64,000 nucleotides of DNA from contig NZ_JAIUFY010000015.1 of the NCBI RefSeq assembly GCF_020165855.1, positions 67,316 through 131,315 on the forward strand, given 5' to 3'. Shown here in pieces: positions 32,933-40,548 of the stretch. How positions within the stretch are numbered: position 1 is the stretch's first letter; every line of letters begins with the position of its first letter. Source of the DNA: Celeribacter litoreus. GTDB taxonomy: Bacteria; Pseudomonadota; Alphaproteobacteria; Rhodobacterales; Rhodobacteraceae. The position numbers were made by a program, and so were the translations under genes. Under the pieces are notes generated by a model. It did no database searches and was not told where the DNA came from. It saw only the letters and a program-made list of their open reading frames with translations.

Positions 32933-33071
32933 GTGAGTTTCTCCTCTGTCGCATTTCCTCCCGAGTCTAAAGCAAGGGGGCCTGATTTCAATTCGGACGT
33001 CGATGCACCTTTGCGAATCCCCCGTTGCATTCGTATAGATGGAGGATGACCACTATATCTTGGGGGCAGGC

Positions 33072-33866
33072 ATGCATCAGTACCACGAGCAGTTGAAAAC
33101 CATCTTGGCGCATGGGGTTGATACGACTGACCGCACAGGGACCGGAACCCGCTCCTATTTCGGCTTGCAGGCCCGTTATGACCTCGCTGATGGATTCCCG
33201 ATGGTCACGACCAAAAAACTCCACCTGCGGTCGATCATCCATGAACTTTTGTGGTTTCTCTCTGGTGACACCAACATCCGCTATCTGAAAGAGAACGGTG
33301 TTTCGATCTGGGACGAGTGGGCCGATGAGAATGGCGATCTCGGGCCGGTCTATGGCGCACAATGGCGGAAATGGCCAGGTGGTGAGCGTGGCTCGATTGA
33401 CCAGATCAAGACACTCTTGAACTCCATAGAGAAAAGCCCCGATTCCCGTCGTCTGATCGTGTCCGCATGGAACCCCGCCGAGGTGGACAACATGGCGCTG
33501 CCGCCGTGTCATACGCTATGGCAGGTGAAAATCCTCGGCGGCAAAATGCATCTCCAACTCTATCAACGCTCTGCCGACATGTTCCTCGGCGTGCCGTTCA
33601 ACATTGCGTCCTATTCTCTTCTGCTCGCCATGCTCGCACAGGTGACTGGCTACGAAGCAGGCACCTTCGTCCACTCCATCGGCGATGCGCATATCTACTC
33701 CAACCACATGGAGCAGGTGGATCTGCAACTGTCGCGCACGCCGAAAACCTTGCCGAAACTGCGTCTTAATCCGGACGTGAAAGACCTCTTCGCGTTCACC
33801 TATGACGACATCGAAATTCTCGACTACGATCCGGACGGTGCGATCAAAGCGCCTGTCGCTGTCTGA
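33072..33866 (+). CDS. thyA: Thymidylate synthase ThyA
   Basis: ThyA methylates dUMP with methylene-THF, giving dTMP and dihydrofolate. From the ATG at 33072 the protein has 264 residues and begins [10 protein letters not shown], as in E. coli, and the catalytic Cys146 in LPPCHTLWQ falls on the E. coli position. Other signatures: [12 protein letters not shown] and [13 protein letters not shown]. An in-frame ATG at 33039 is less likely. It is 9 bp from folA and together they form a functional operon. Confidence 0.96.
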
Positions 33867-33875
33867 GGGCAAACG

Positions 33876-34349
33876 ATGATTACGCTTATCGCTGCACGCG
33901 ACCGCAATGGCGCCATTGGCAAAGACAACACAATCCCGTGGGAAGCGCCTGAGGATTTGAAGTTCTTCATGCGCGAAACCATGGGGGGCGCGGTCATCAT
34001 GGGGCGTCATACGTGGGATAGCCTGCCGTTCAAACCTTTGAAAAACCGCCTGAACATCGTCGTCTCGCGCCAAGGTGTCGACCATGAGCACGTCTTCCCG
34101 ACCGTTGAGGCAGCGATTGAATTCGCGCAGTCCGAAGGGCGCGCTCGGATATATGCGATGGGGGGCTTTCGCATTTATGAGGCCATGTTGCCACTTGCCG
34201 ACCGTTTGGTGATCACCGAAGTGGATACAGAGGTGCATGAGCCGGACACATGGTTCCCGACCTTTGACCCGGCGGAGTGGCGAGAGGTCTCACGGATGGT
34301 GGTGCGGGACGCCAGCCCGCGCTGTGAAGTTGTGGAATGGGTTCGCTAA
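33876..34349 (+). CDS. folA: Dihydrofolate reductase
   Basis: FolA regenerates THF from the dihydrofolate that ThyA makes. The 157-residue product has IAARDRNGAIGKDNTIPWEAPEDLKFF at its start (with the Trp and the active-site acidic residue), IMGRHTWDSLP and later GGFRIYEAMLPLADRLVITEV. Length is standard. It is 9 bp downstream of thyA and likely translated from the same mRNA. The C-terminal stop is convergent to an esterase gene. Confidence 0.96.
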   Translation: MITLIAARDRNGAIGKDNTIPWEAPEDLKFFMRETMGGAVIMGRHTWDSLPFKPLKNRLNIVVSRQGVDHEHVFPTVEAAIEFAQSEGRARIYAMGGFRIYEAMLPLADRLVITEVDTEVHEPDTWFPTFDPAEWREVSRMVVRDASPRCEVVEWVR

Positions 34350-34992: not shown

Positions 34993-35012
34993 GGGTCTCT
35001 CCAAAAAGTAAA

Positions 35013-35040
35013 GCGGCTCCGAACGTGCGTCCGGAACCGC
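35013..35040 (-). terminator. Probable terminator after the cold-shock gene
   Basis: GCGGTTCCG and CGGAGCCGC (minus-strand reading) form a 9-bp stem with one G-U pair, followed by TTTACTTTTT. Confidence 0.75.
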
Positions 35041-35062
35041 CGACTTTCAAGAAAAAGATTTC

Positions 35063-35269
35063 TCAGAGCGCCTGAAGTTCGGTCGCGGACGCGCGGCCAT
35101 CACGGCCTTCGCGAAGTTCGTAGCCGATTTTCATGTTGTCTGCGAGGCCAGTCATGCCCGCACGTTCTACGGCAGAAATATGTACAAAAACATCTTTTCC
35201 GCCCTCGTCAGGGGCGATGAAACCATAACCTTTGGTCGTGTTGAACCATTTGACGGTGCCGGTGGGCAT
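35063..35269 (-). CDS. Cold-shock domain protein
   Basis: A 68-residue single CSD protein. RNA-binding motif RNP1 reads KGYGFIAPD and RNP2 reads VFVHIS. CspA-type proteins are RNA chaperones. The ATG at 35269 has AGGAG upstream and begins MPTGTVKWFN. The frame stays open upstream to 35506 but without family sequence. The leader holds a small hairpin (TGCTCC and GGAGCA at 35346-35361), perhaps part of a regulated 5' UTR as in other csp genes. Divergent from the ArsC-like gene. Confidence 0.93.
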   Translation of the reverse strand: MPTGTVKWFNTTKGYGFIAPDEGGKDVFVHISAVERAGMTGLADNMKIGYELREGRDGRASATELQAL

Positions 35270-35498
35270 AGTCCGAAGTCTCCTATTTTGTTCGGCCGCT
35301 ACGTGCGGCAGGTCCGGTGCAGCCAGGTCTTCCAAGTCAGCTAGCTGCTCCGTGAGGAGCAATCGTTCTAGAAAGTCAGCAGTCACACTTTCGAGTTTGC
35401 CGCAGTTCGATATAAAGGCAAGCGACAATATCGTAACGCATCTGGACACACCATTTTTTCGGGGAATGTCCATAATTTGCGCCACTTGTGAGGGCAAA

Positions 35499-35813
35499 AT
35501 GACCAAAATTTATGGAATCAAAACCTGTGACAGCTGCCGTAAAGCGTCGAAAGCACTCGGTGTTGCGCTGCACGATATTCGCATAGAGCCGCTGTCACGC
35601 GCGGAGATTGAGCGATTCCATAGGGAATTTGGCGCAGCTTTGGTGAATACCCGTTCGACGACATGGCGTGGTCTCTCGGAGGCGGAGCGCGACGAAGACC
35701 CGATTTCTCTCCTGATGGCGCACCCGACTTTGATGAAACGTCCGGTGATCGAGCGGGACGGCAAACTTTTGCTCGGATGGGGCAAGGATGTTCAGGCTGA
35801 ATTGCTAGGCTGA
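35499..35813 (+). CDS. ArsC/Spx-family thioredoxin-fold protein
   Basis: A 104-residue protein starting MTKIYGIKTCDSCRKASKAL, with a CxxC (Cys10, Cys13). The family includes glutaredoxin-dependent arsenate reductase, Spx and the YffB-like proteins. The Arg triad for arsenate reductase is not clear to me, and without other ars genes I do not assign a role. The end VIERDGKLLLGWG is typical of YffB. Its stop overlaps the convergent DoxX gene by 9 bp. Confidence 0.85.
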   Translation: MTKIYGIKTCDSCRKASKALGVALHDIRIEPLSRAEIERFHREFGAALVNTRSTTWRGLSEAERDEDPISLLMAHPTLMKRPVIERDGKLLLGWGKDVQAELLG

Positions 35814-36323
35814 CAGACCGGGCAGTCGCTTCGCAATCACCCGATCTAAAGAGAACCATCCACCACCTAGCCCCACAATGGATAGGAGGAGGAACATCCA
35901 AAGTGCGCGTTGGTCGAGGATCAGGCCGTCTGAGGCGCGATCAAACAAGGCGCCGATTGTGGCCGCGCCAACGCCATGCCCGATGATGTCCGTCAGAGAT
36001 TGGACGATGACAAAGCCGATCATGCCGAGGGCGGCAAGCCTCGTCGCGAGCCCCAAGAGGATGAGGAGCGGCAGGACAAGTTCTGCGTAGCTACCGGCCA
36101 TGATCACCGCCCAATGCCAGAGGCCAAAACCGGAAATGTCGTACCCTGCGGCCTCCATCTGTCGCGGAAAGATCTGCGCATAGGCGTTGAAGGTCGGGGT
36201 GAAGGGGCCGTCGAGTTTCGTGAGCGCTGACGACCAGAAATAGCGCAGGAGAACAGCGGCGAAGGTCAATCTGGCGAGGAGCGGCAATGCGTGGACGGAT
36301 GCGCGGGTGATCGGGGCAAACAT
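35805..36323 (-). CDS. bufD: DoxX family membrane protein (BufD-like)
   Basis: A 172-residue DoxX-family protein with about four membrane helices. The first helix carries LLRYFWSSALTKLDG, the family pattern for a quinone/heme-associated membrane protein, and LILLGLATRLAALG is typical. The start at 36323 has AGGAGG, perfectly placed. It is the last of four minus-strand genes (bufA to bufD), with a 1-bp gap to bufC. In bufferin operons a DoxX gene often comes last; its role is not established. The symbol is by operon context. Confidence 0.78.
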   Translation of the reverse strand: MFAPITRASVHALPLLARLTFAAVLLRYFWSSALTKLDGPFTPTFNAYAQIFPRQMEAAGYDISGFGLWHWAVIMAGSYAELVLPLLILLGLATRLAALGMIGFVIVQSLTDIIGHGVGAATIGALFDRASDGLILDQRALWMFLLLSIVGLGGGWFSLDRVIAKRLPGLSA

Positions 36324-36324
36324 G

Positions 36325-37047
36325 TCAGACCTCCTGAATGGCGGTGATTGCCGCGCCGTCGAGAAGGGCGCGGAGAAAAAGTGAGAGATCGAGTTGTTTT
36401 GGAGCGGCCTCAATCGCGTGTTCGAGCGCATCTCCTGCCGCCAGCTTCTCCAAAACATTGATGGTTCCGCGCGGAAATGAGGTCGCAACTGGATCAAACG
36501 CGCGGCGTGTGATCAGAATGTCCTCTGCTCCTCCCTCCGGCTTTGGCCCGCCAAGGGCGAAGGCGTGGATCGAGGTGATCGGGAAGTCGCTCGACATCCA
36601 CCGAACACTGGGCGCGAGTTTGACGGCGCGGGTAAAGAGCAGAGGATCGGACAGGTCTCCGGCATCGACAGGCGCGCTATCCGCCGCGTGGTAGCTTTCG
36701 CGGAGCGCGTATTCGAGCCGAGCGACGTCGGGTAAATAAGGGACCGGTTGGGCAGGGGCGAAGCCTGCAATGAACTCTGCGAACCCTGCGCCATAGAGCG
36801 GAAGCCGGGGGGCGGACGGTGGGTGCGATCTGAGAAATGCGTCGCTTAGTGCGGAGAAGAACTCGTCGCCGACGAGCGATTTGACTGCCGGAAACCCCTG
36901 TGCGAGGGCGTCTTTCAAGCCGACGACGATGTTGTTGCGATAGACCGCAAATCGTTTGGTCGCAGGGGCTCCTTCCGGTGTCACGAGGCCTGCAGGGAGG
37001 GGCGCGGTCGGGTCCAATGCGGCTTTGATGAAAGTTGCCTGTGTCAT
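36325..37047 (-). CDS. bufC: DUF2063 partner protein of the MNIO enzyme (BufC-like)
   Basis: A 240-residue protein. The N-terminal half (RFAVYRNNIVVGLKDALAQGFPAVKSLVG) is the DUF2063 domain, wrongly called DNA-binding in many annotations. Known examples (HvfC, MbnC-like, TglI-like roles) act as recognition or activation partners of DUF692 enzymes. The ATG overlaps the bufB stop (ATGA), so the two proteins are made together, fitting a complex. The C-terminal half is more variable and is of the BufC/HvfC type. Confidence 0.87.
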   Translation of the reverse strand: MTQATFIKAALDPTAPLPAGLVTPEGAPATKRFAVYRNNIVVGLKDALAQGFPAVKSLVGDEFFSALSDAFLRSHPPSAPRLPLYGAGFAEFIAGFAPAQPVPYLPDVARLEYALRESYHAADSAPVDAGDLSDPLLFTRAVKLAPSVRWMSSDFPITSIHAFALGGPKPEGGAEDILITRRAFDPVATSFPRGTINVLEKLAAGDALEHAIEAAPKQLDLSLFLRALLDGAAITAIQEV

Positions 37048-37892
37048 GCGGGCACCTTTTCAAGACGCTCGGCCGCGCGGATGACCTCTCCCTCCAGTTC
37101 CGGCCATTCGGGGACATCCGTATCCCATTCGATGAGGGTCGGTTTTGGGCCGCCTGTCGCGAGGGTGTAGGTGTAGAGATGCCAGACCGGGTCGACGATT
37201 TTCTGCCCGTGGCTGTCAATCAGAAGCGGCGCACCGTTTTCATCTTCGTCCTCGCTGTGCCCGCCGAGGTGTAGCTCTCCGACGGCGTCATGGGGGAAGT
37301 GGTCGATATATTCGAACGCGTCGAGCCGGAGGTTTGTTGCTGACACAAAGACGTTGTTGACGTCGAGAAGGAGGCCGCAGCCCGTACGCTTGACGATCTC
37401 TCTGAGGAAATCGACCTCGCCATATGTGCTCTCCGCGAAGGCGAGATAGGAGGAGGGATTTTCGAGGAGCATTCGTCGTCCAAGGGTCTCTTGCACGTGG
37501 TCGATGTGGTCACAAACGCGGTTCAGCGTGGCGTCCGTATAGGGCAGGGGCAGAAGGTCATTGTAGAAGCCGCCGTCGTGCGTGGACCAAGCGAGGTGTT
37601 CGGAAAACGATGCGGGCTCGAGCCAGTCGATCAGGTGCTTAAGGCGCTTCAGATGGTCCGCGTCGAGGTCTCTTTCGCCGCCGATCGAGAGGCCGACCCC
37701 ATGGACGGAGATCGGTAATTTCTCATAAAGGCTCCGCAATTGCGCGAGAGGGCGTCCACCCGCGCCCATGTAGTTTTCCGCATGGATTTCGACCCATTTG
37801 ACAGGGGTATTCCCGCTCATAATGTTCGAAAAGTGCGCGGATTTGTATCCGACGCCAACCGCCGTCGGCAGGAATTTGTGTTGGTCCAACAT
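37044..37892 (-). CDS. bufB: DUF692 multinuclear non-heme iron enzyme (BufB-like)
   Basis: A 282-residue TIM-barrel protein of the MNIO family, related to MbnB. Metal ligand segments are visible: WVEIHAENYMG, SVHGVGLSIGG, FSEHLAWSTH, LENPSSYL, LLLDVNNVFVS, GELHLGGH and LLIDSHG. MNIOs oxidise Cys in ribosomal peptides. In the related bufferins, Cys residues become thiooxazoles that bind copper. The gene lies 60 bp after the precursor, beyond a hairpin, and has GAGGGAGAG upstream. Confidence 0.93.
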   Translation of the reverse strand: MLDQHKFLPTAVGVGYKSAHFSNIMSGNTPVKWVEIHAENYMGAGGRPLAQLRSLYEKLPISVHGVGLSIGGERDLDADHLKRLKHLIDWLEPASFSEHLAWSTHDGGFYNDLLPLPYTDATLNRVCDHIDHVQETLGRRMLLENPSSYLAFAESTYGEVDFLREIVKRTGCGLLLDVNNVFVSATNLRLDAFEYIDHFPHDAVGELHLGGHSEDEDENGAPLLIDSHGQKIVDPVWHLYTYTLATGGPKPTLIEWDTDVPEWPELEGEVIRAAERLEKVPA

Positions 37893-37914
37893 CTTTCTCT
37901 CCCTCTTTGAATTG

Positions 37915-37943
37915 GGTCCGGCATCGTGGGGAGATGCCGGACC
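37915..37943 (-). promoter_or_regulatory. Intercistronic stem-loop between bufA and bufB
   Basis: GGTCCGGCATC and GATGCCGGACC form a perfect 11-bp inverted repeat with a 7-nt loop. There is no T run, so it looks like an mRNA-stabilising or attenuating structure rather than a terminator. It would favour precursor over enzyme levels. Confidence 0.75.
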
Positions 37944-37952
37944 AGAGTTTGA

Positions 37953-38258
37953 TTAGCTTTCCATCGGCAGGTCGCGATCGAGGGCTTCGAGAGAGCCCAT
38001 GCGTTCAGAGCCGTCAGCCATCGCGGGAAGTTCGATGTCCATGCAGGTGCCGGCGGGAACGAGGGTCCATGCGTTGCCTTGGTAGTCGACTTTCGATGTG
38101 CCTGCGCAGGTCGTTCCCGGACCTGCCGCACAGCCGTTCTCACCGGCGAGAGCGACGCCGAAGCATTTTTCCTGACCGTCTGCGTGGGCCACGCCAGCGA
38201 AAGAAAGTGCAGTTGTCATTGCGCCGAGAAGGGCGAGGGTTTTGGATTGAGTGCTCAT
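37953..38258 (-). CDS. bufA: DUF2282 precursor peptide (bufferin-like)
   Basis: A 101-residue precursor. Residues 1-27 are a signal peptide (hydrophobic [19 protein letters not shown]), so the product is secreted to the periplasm, unusual for RiPPs. The core has four Cys (32, 43, 51, 72) in a DUF2282 pattern: [20 protein letters not shown], then [14 protein letters not shown] and GTCM. The product ends with an acidic tail of about 25 residues ([20 protein letters not shown]) that appears longer than what I recall for the family. The start at 38258 has GGAG. It is the first gene of the operon. Confidence 0.9.
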
Positions 38259-38556
38259 GTGTGTGTCTCCGTTTCATGCGTTTCCGCCGTGAGGGGCGGT
38301 GACACAACGATGGCAGACAGGTTAGCTCACAGACCATTCACGGGCGCGTCACATGACGCGTGTGTCAGGATTTGAAACATACGATTTTGTGACTTGATCT
38401 GGCGTGCGGCGGTGGCGCGGACGGTCGCAAAATATACGATTTTCCGAATGCAAGCGCTGTGATCCGCGAAAACGTGGGTGTTTTTGAGTGATCTCTCTAA
38501 AACTGGCGCTGTAACAATTCTCACGCGTGCTCACGCACTCGGTGTAGAGCAAAAGA
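38259..38556. other. Gene-free region upstream of the buf operon with repeats
   Basis: About 300 bp with no supportable gene. It holds a 16-bp interrupted palindrome (CGCGTCA, CA, TGACGCG; 38345-38360) and a perfect 10-bp direct repeat ATACGATTTT at 38379-38388 and 38434-38443, 55 bp apart. This is expected to hold the buf operon promoter and its control sites. Confidence 0.55.
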
Positions 38557-38579
38557 AAAGCCCCCTGGGCGGGGGCTTT
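38557..38579 (-). terminator. Rho-independent terminator after thrS
   Basis: AAAGCCCCC and GGGGGCTTT pair with a 5-nt loop. On the minus strand it is followed by TCTTTTG. Confidence 0.85.
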
Positions 38580-38601
38580 CATATTTCAGATTTTGGCCTG
38601 T

Positions 38602-40548
38602 TTATTTCAGATCTGGCGCGAGAGCGGCGTCTTTCAGCTCAGCCACGATGTCATCAAGTGACATAACTGCGGTCTGTTTTTCGCCGAGACGACGGACAGA
38701 GACGGTCTTTTCTTCGACTTCACGCGCGCCAACGGCGAGGATCACCGGCACTTTCGCAAGCGAGTGTTCGCGGACCTTATAGTTGATCTTCTCGTTGCGG
38801 GTGTCCGCCTCTGCACGCACACCGGCGGCTTTGAGGGCTGCGACGACCTCATCCGCGTAACCGTCGGCCTCGGAGATAATCGTGGTCACGACCACCTGAC
38901 GCGGGGCGAGCCAGAAGGGCAGTTTGCCTGCGTGGGACTCGATCAGGATGCCGATGAAGCGTTCAAACGATCCAAGAACCGCGCGGTGCAGCATGACAGG
39001 GCGGTGTTTTGCGCCATCCTGGCCGACGAAGTTCGCGTCGAGACGCTCCGGCAGGTTCGGGTCCACCTGAAGCGTGCCGCACTGCCACTCACGGCCAATT
39101 GCGTCGGTGAGAACGAACTCAAGCTTCGGTCCGTAGAACGCACCTTCGCCTTCTTGGATTTCATAGTCGTAGCCAGCTGCTTTACACGCGTTGCCGAGCG
39201 ACTCCTCTGCGTGATCCCAGCTCTCTTCAGTCCCGATCCGTTTTTCCGGACGGGTGGAGAGTTTGATTGACCAGTCGTGGAACCCGAGGTCGGCGTAGAT
39301 GGCTGCGAGAAATTCGATGAATTTCTTCGTTTCGCTTTCGATGTGCGACTCTTCGCAGAAGATATGCGCGTCATCTTGAGTAAAGCCGCGCACACGCATG
39401 ATGCCGTGGAGCGCGCCCGACGGTTCATAGCGGTTACAGGAACCGAATTCTGCCATGCGCAGCGGCAGGTCACGGTAGGATTTCAGGCCCTGATTGAAGA
39501 CCTGCACGTGACACGGGCAGTTCATCGGCTTGAGCGCGTTGACGGTCTTTTCGCGGGCATGGTCTTCGTCCACTTCGACGATGAACATGTTTTCCTGATA
39601 GTTGTCCCAGTGACCGGACGCTTCCCAGAGTTTGCGGTTCACGACCTGCGGGGTGTTCACCTCGACATAGCCGTCGCGTTCCTGCTGGCGACGCATGTAG
39701 TCCTGCAGCGTGGTGTAGATTTTCCAGCCGTTCGGGTGCCAGAAGATCTGACCCGGGGCCTCTTCCTGCATGTGGAACAGGTCCATTTCTCGGCCGAGTT
39801 TACGGTGATCGCGCTTGGCGGCCTCTTCCATCATGGTTTCCCATGCTTTGAGGTCCTTGCGGTTTTTGAACGCAACGCCGTAGATACGCTGAAGCATCGG
39901 ACGATCGCTGTCGCCGAGCCAGTAGGCACCTGCCACGTGGGTCAGTTTGAACGCATCTGCCGGAAGCTGACCGGTGTGCTGGAGGTGCGGGCCACGGCAA
40001 AGGTCCTGCCAGTCGCCGTGCCAGTACATACGGATGTTTTCGCCCTCGGGAATGCGGTTCACGAGTTCGACTTTAAAGCTCTCGCCACGGGACTCGTAAT
40101 ATTCGATGGCTTCGTCGCGGCCCCAAACTTCGGTCTTCACAGCGTCGCGGGCGTTGATGATGTCTTTCATCTTCGCTTCAATCGCGCCGAGGTCTTCGGG
40201 CGTGAACGGCTCTGCGCGGTCGAAGTCATAGAACCAGCCGTTGTCACGCACCGGCCCGATGGTCACTTTGACGTCCGGCCAGATTTCCTGAACCGCACGC
40301 GCCATGACGTGGGCGAGGTCGTGGCGGATGAGTTCGAGCGCCTGCTCGTCGTCCTGCATCGTGTGGATCGCGACGGTTGCATCGTCTTCGATCGGCCATT
40401 GAAGGTCCCAGTGGGCACCGTTCACGGTCGCGGAGATGGCTTTTTTGGAGAGAGACTTGGAAATGCTTTCAGCGACTTCTGCAGGGGTGATACCCTTGTC
40501 ATAGTCGCGTGCATTGCCGTCGGGGAAAGTGAGAGAGATCTGGGACAT
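38602..40548 (-). CDS. thrS: Threonyl-tRNA synthetase
   Basis: ThrS charges tRNA-Thr. The 648-residue product has an N-terminal TGS domain ([18 protein letters not shown]), an editing domain with [17 protein letters not shown], and the class II core with [21 protein letters not shown]. The C-terminal anticodon-binding domain starts around [10 protein letters not shown]. Zinc ligands are visible as Cys in MNCPCHV and His in the core. The ATG at 40548 has AGGAGG upstream. Confidence 0.97.

Follow-up and report, generated by a model that had tools for sequence, protein, structure and literature searches.

Gene arrangement at the locus

The window, meaning the whole stretch of 64,000 nucleotides that was analysed, carried four adjacent genes, bufABCD, on the minus strand from 38258 to 35805, all with intact reading frames. 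The first gene, bufA (37953..38258, 101 aa), encoded a Buf1-type bufferin precursor of the Pfam family DUF2282, and was followed by bufB (37044..37892, 282 aa) for an MNIO (DUF692) enzyme, bufC (36325..37047, 240 aa) for a DUF2063 partner (PME type 1) and bufD (35805..36323, 172 aa counted from the ATG) for a DoxX membrane protein. A gap of 60 bases separated bufA and bufB, the stop codon of bufB and the start codon of bufC had ATGA (37047-37044) in common and the ATG of bufD (36323) lay one base past the stop codon of bufC. The order of precursor, MNIO, DUF2063 and DoxX genes had been described in an earlier sequence-only reading of the stretch, and its coordinates and both close junctions were found to be correct. 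For bufD, a 230-aa frame starting at TTG was a mechanical ORF call and the ATG start was taken instead.

Three further minus-strand features were located around these genes. A stem-loop with an 11-bp stem occupied the space between bufA and bufB (37915..37943), a conserved palindromic block was found 5' of bufA (38327..38368) as a possible regulator-binding or promoter region, and a terminator-like hairpin with a T tail was placed by a terminator scan after thrS and before the buf operon (38556..38580). The stem-loop and the palindromic block are additions to the first reading.

On the other side of the operon, bufD and a plus-strand ArsC/Spx-like gene (approximately 35499-35813, start set by eye; PF03960, 44.8 bits) were arranged tail to tail with a 9-base overlap at 35805-35813. 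Elsewhere in the window, the plus strand carried adjoining genes at 33039-34349 which, by their sequences, are presumably those of thymidylate synthase and dihydrofolate reductase.

Family identity of the four products

Searches against Pfam gave scores above the cut-offs for all four products, which rules out chance. BufA matched DUF2282 (PF10048) with 80.8 bits (cut-off 22.4), BufB matched MbnB_TglH_ChrH (PF05114), the MNIO family formerly named DUF692, with 342.3 bits (cut-off 25), BufC matched DUF2063 (PF09836) over residues 2-93 with 84.9 bits (cut-off 27.2) and BufD matched DoxX (PF07681) with 39.0 bits (cut-off 23.6). The profiles by which the earlier reading had proposed to check its assignments, DUF2282, PF05114 and PF09836, were among these matches. 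With NCBIfam, BufB passed the curated equivalog NF050167 (MNIO_BufB, "MNIO family bufferin maturase") with 372.3 bits (cut-off 310), which bears out the bufferin-type interpretation that had been made from the letters. The scores of BufB with the HvfB and MbnB equivalogs were 237.4 bits (cut-off 360) and 56.2 bits (cut-off 325), and the ApyH and ChrH models likewise stayed under their own cut-offs. BufA had zero NCBIfam matches, while BufC and BufD showed weak scores, far below the cut-offs, with the HvfC (42 bits, cut-off 142) and HvfX (24 bits, cut-off 80) equivalogs. The genome of the strain contained one MNIO match and one DUF2282 match.

BufB could be aligned over residues 12-270 to 3BWW, a solved MNIO structure. 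A comparison of BufC with solved structures by sequence produced no credible match, the best E value of 0.7 being at the level of chance. In an alignment of eight BufB rows, namely the window and seven relatives hand-chosen from the loci in hand, H64, H99, E144, D177, N179, N180, H208, H212, D226, H228 and E255 were invariant, and the earlier statement that the metal-ligand segments of the enzyme are intact agrees with this. These 11 residues are taken here to be the iron pocket, by analogy with the ligands of MbnB, TglH and HvfB. D226 and H228 formed a D-x-H motif that was also present in 3BWW. The third-site residues described for HvfB are N175, D242 and H244 (PMC13419390). BufD had several hydrophobic stretches and zero Cys.

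The precursor BufA contained, as had been noted before, four Cys; these were residues 32, 43, 51 and 72, with the spacing C-x10-C-x7-C-x20-C. All 104 distinct BufA sequences examined had a core of C-x10-C-x7-C-x18-24-C and exactly four Cys past the first 22 residues; this set included the BufA of the window, was chosen throughout by similarity to it and held one copy per locus. The N-terminus showed a single hydrophobic stretch (residues 8-26) with AHA before residue 27, as judged by eye, and is likely a signal peptide. The dN/dS of bufA was approximately 0.09-0.15 against the five compared genus relatives of equal length, so that the gene looks to be under purifying selection. Residues 73-101 made up a lineage-typical C-terminal tail with D/E-R-D-[L/I/M/V], present in 88 of 102 distinct tails. 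This tail was considered as a recognition element and is kept as a lead only, because preliminary published results favour the signal peptide in that role (PMC12452194, PMC13419390). Tandem bufA copies ahead of one bufB were found in three of the 80 best relatives (L090, L105 and L107) and also in L020.

Conservation and putative control region of the operon

A BufB relative was present in 40 of the 61 genomes searched, the strain's own included. Within the genus, represented by 20 genomes, BufB and DUF2282 matches occurred together in the same 16 and were both missing from the same four. In a first set of 29 relatives (L004-L032), matches to bufA and bufC were found around bufB in all 29 and to bufD in 28. 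A second set consisted of the best 80 of at least 593 BufB relatives and overlapped with the first, since L016/L075, L012/L082 and L019/L154 look identical. By their recognised names these best 80 were nearly all Rhodobacterales, with some unplaced metagenome bins, one Maritalea mobilis (Hyphomicrobiales per NCBI) and one entry labelled Pseudomonadota only; the placement of the operon in a roseobacter is in line with this. The complete bufABCD was present in 78 of the 80, the other two being L118, which ends at a contig edge before bufA, and L148, which had no BufD match. Of the 80 loci, 77 had the thrS gene upstream in the same orientation, as did all 74 loci that offered room of more than 2500 bases; its distance from bufB was at most approximately 1100 bases in 66 cases and larger in the other 11. 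Overall, many marine roseobacters have this operon next to one and the same housekeeping gene.

For nine more distant alphaproteobacterial loci (L155-L163), tblastn showed BufA in eight, BufC in eight, BufD in five and thrS in none. In one of them, L161, the BufA match was on the opposite strand some 570 bases off, and a short six-Cys frame with CKG-like repeats stood directly before the distant MNIO gene. A plasmid search with a 5.2-kb query returned two Tritonibacter records that matched approximately 37% of it on the thrS side, and the operon was found in none of the records.

The stem-loop between bufA and bufB varied in sequence among relatives and its stem persisted in most of them. Of the 30 loci L003-L032 (own included), 27 had a perfect stem of 8 bp or more, and the folding-energy z was below -2 in 22 of the 30. 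In the best-relative set, stems of 9 bp or more were seen in 70 of the 79 loci with bufA, compared with an average of 6.0 for the best stem in shuffled sequences, and z was below -2 in 55 of the 79, the other 24 missing that level. In the tandem arrangement of L020 the stem-loop followed the second bufA copy, and in that of L105 the gap between bufA and bufB held no comparable stem. Outside the family, where six of nine loci were examined, four loci had best stems of 4-5 bp behind bufA, L155 had one of 7 bp and L157 had one of 11 bp that fell inside the bufB frame. A search of positions 35000-39000 against Rfam gave zero matches. Plain termination was rejected as the general reading of the stem-loop because in only 17 of the 70 best-relative loci with stems of 9 bp or longer did the following 8 bases contain at least four T. 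In other peptide operons, a stem-loop that favours the precursor message over the enzyme genes is a familiar layout, and the stem-loop found here may favour the bufA message in the same manner.

Stacking of the regions upstream of bufA revealed the shared pattern TcACg-N4-CGTG-N3-CACG-N4-YGTGA-N-TGG, the last part of which starts 78-116 bases ahead of the start codon in the best-relative set. The copy in the window deviates somewhat, with one extra base and GACG instead of CACG. The YGTGANTGG core was exact in 37 of 78 best-relative loci (shuffled mean 0.3, maximum 3) and in 20 of the 30 loci L003-L032, own included; of the loci without the exact core, many showed a near form by eye and others showed none. 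For a sequence-only model, R1, 45 of the 57 core-bearing loci were used and 12 were omitted to thin near kin. At E < 1e-3, R1 placed the block in 21 of the 61 genomes, always within approximately 700 bases upstream of bufB; ten of these 21 genomes apparently gave R1 no row, though close kin of theirs did. The 19 remaining bufB genomes of the 40 had no R1 match at this level, including all 10 outside the family. No second place was found by R1 at E < 1e-3 in the 61 genomes, a search in which stricter filters lose some weak matches. The next-best match (E 0.006, genome G046) fell in a coding frame. This frame looks like dapF.

A short form of the block pattern gave 27 matches in the 20 genus genomes and five with the reversed control; ten of the 27 were the bufA site and 17 lay elsewhere. 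Five of the 17 recur at one place, the end of a conserved opposite-strand frame which we take to be coaX, and were not accepted as a second regulated site for that reason. Another two pairs were shared by G010 and G011, two genomes close to each other. The block before bufA is a possible candidate for a regulator-binding site. In one genus member (L007), an insert of approximately 120 bases separates the block from the bufA ribosome site, with both left in place. A 5'-UTR hairpin (CCGCC...GGCGG) before this ribosome site seemed to be kept among genus members and is not claimed, because over 108 upstream regions the longest stem averaged 5.6 bp, compared with 5.2 bp for shuffled sequences.

The terminator scan found seven terminator-like sites in the scanned stretch against a shuffled mean of 3.3, and these include the hairpin at 38580-38556 after thrS. 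Since thrS has this terminator-like hairpin of its own, the buf operon likely has its own promoter in 38259-38555; a sigma-70 consensus scan gave zero sites with a shuffled mean of 1.0. NrsF had zero matches in the genome of the strain, and the Caulobacter vibrioides control genome gave a match. None of the three profiled neighbours (thrS, the ArsC-like gene and a GDSL gene) was a sigma factor. Copper induction is not transferable to this operon from clusters that bear a sigma factor and NrsF, because NrsF is missing from the genome and a sigma factor from the profiled neighbours.

Interpretation and comparison with known systems

Bufferins are a recently described and widespread class of modified copper-binding peptides. 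The core of a bufferin cluster is made up of precursor, MNIO, DUF2063 and DoxX genes (PMC12452194), DoxX being common without occurring in every cluster, and because the four genes found here are this published core, the operon is a real and standard bufferin operon of an already known kind. The reading adopted, with a probability of about 93%, is that of a Buf1-type bufferin operon, which by homology would make a modified, exported copper-binding peptide. In the mechanism proposed by analogy with described systems, translation of bufA would yield a precursor bearing a Sec signal peptide. The multi-iron oxidase BufB together with BufC as partner and recogniser would turn Cys 43 and Cys 51 of this precursor into 5-thiooxazoles in the cytoplasm, after which the modified peptide would be exported and its signal peptide cut off. 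Cys 32 and Cys 72 would form a disulphide, the mature peptide would bind and buffer copper in the periplasm and BufD would serve as a membrane accessory. At the level of control, the comparison of sequences suggests that the stem-loop would hold the bufA transcript at a higher level than the enzyme transcripts and that a regulator may bind the palindromic block.

The choice of Cys residues follows Buf1, for which modification of the two central Cys and a disulphide between the first and the last are described (PMC12452194). Since the modification is placed on the two central Cys, a mass loss is expected per central Cys and the sequence-only reading, which had looked for one per pair of Cys, needs correction on this point. 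The same reading had regarded the secreted precursor and the DoxX partner as unusual; this holds in comparison with most RiPPs and fails in comparison with other bufferins, where both are standard (PMC12452194).

The alternative that survives best keeps the same genes and chemistry and is compatible with the bufferin identity, but gives the peptide a different main task, against gold, mercury-like soft metals, or oxidative or sulphur stress via DoxX, with copper binding secondary. In favour of it, MNIO clusters include bufferin-type operons induced by gold (gig) and fusions to MerC, DoxX has been linked to oxidative or sulphur stress (PMC12452194), a Legionella operon promoter answers gold and copper (PMC5413113) and an ArsC/Spx-like gene lies convergently beside bufD. 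However, Buf1 of Caulobacter vibrioides is said to protect against copper (PMC12452194) and Pfam and NCBIfam placed none of the four products in a different metal-resistance family, so a main role other than copper is considered unlikely, if still worth keeping in view. An oxazolin (HvfA) or methanobactin-type system instead of a bufferin is suggested by the scores that BufB obtained with the HvfB and MbnB models, but both are under the cut-offs while the bufferin-maturase model was passed, BufA is a DUF2282 match without EGKCG repeats and the partner is a DUF2063 protein with no MbnC match in Pfam or NCBIfam, which makes such a system very improbable. Retention of the genes as a decayed relic with an unmodified product is hardly credible given four intact frames, 11 invariant BufB pocket positions in the window and seven relatives, a bufA dN/dS of about 0.1 and a complete operon in nearly all of the best relatives.

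A wider proposal can be made tentatively, at somewhat less than even odds. One ancestral bufferin operon may have become fixed behind thrS in roseobacters, with a dedicated palindromic operator ahead of bufA and a regulator for this operon alone, and a stem-loop that sets the peptide far above the enzyme, these together replacing the control by a sigma factor and NrsF known from other Buf1 clusters. The putative regulator would be copper- or stress-sensing, which is proposed jointly with the rest and just as tentatively. The retention of this operon at a single site across many genera of roseobacters suggests that marine bacteria have a lasting demand for metal buffering in the periplasm, and the block and stem-loop offer a handle on operon control where there is no adjacent sigma factor. 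No study of a roseobacter bufferin operon or of its stem-loop was found among the matches listed from the open-licence literature.

The Caulobacter operon itself is bufABCD. Among the known systems, the gig operons of Cupriavidus and Legionella are stated to be bufferin clusters (PMC12452194), and the Legionella study mentions DoxX and DUF2282 and describes a response to copper and gold (PMC5413113); they differ in belonging to these other lineages. The oxazolin HvfABC, fontiphorin and gonophorin systems (EGKCG captophorins) share a related MNIO, a DUF2063 partner and 5-thiooxazole chemistry (PMC13097082) as well as a precursor with a signal peptide (PMC12452194), which is likely for BufA too, but their precursor carries EGKCG repeats, whereas that of the present operon is a DUF2282 protein and its bufB is under the HvfB cut-off. 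The Buf1 system of Caulobacter vibrioides, compared by description only, has a DUF2282 precursor with four Cys, a bufferin-type MNIO, DUF2063 and DoxX in common with the operon found here, and its signal peptide has a likely counterpart in BufA; some Buf1 clusters also contain genes for a sigma factor and an anti-sigma factor, without these being obligatory (PMC12452194). In contrast to the Caulobacter system, NrsF is absent from the genome of the present strain, the profiled neighbours of the operon include no sigma factor and the operon, as in the best relatives, stands behind thrS.
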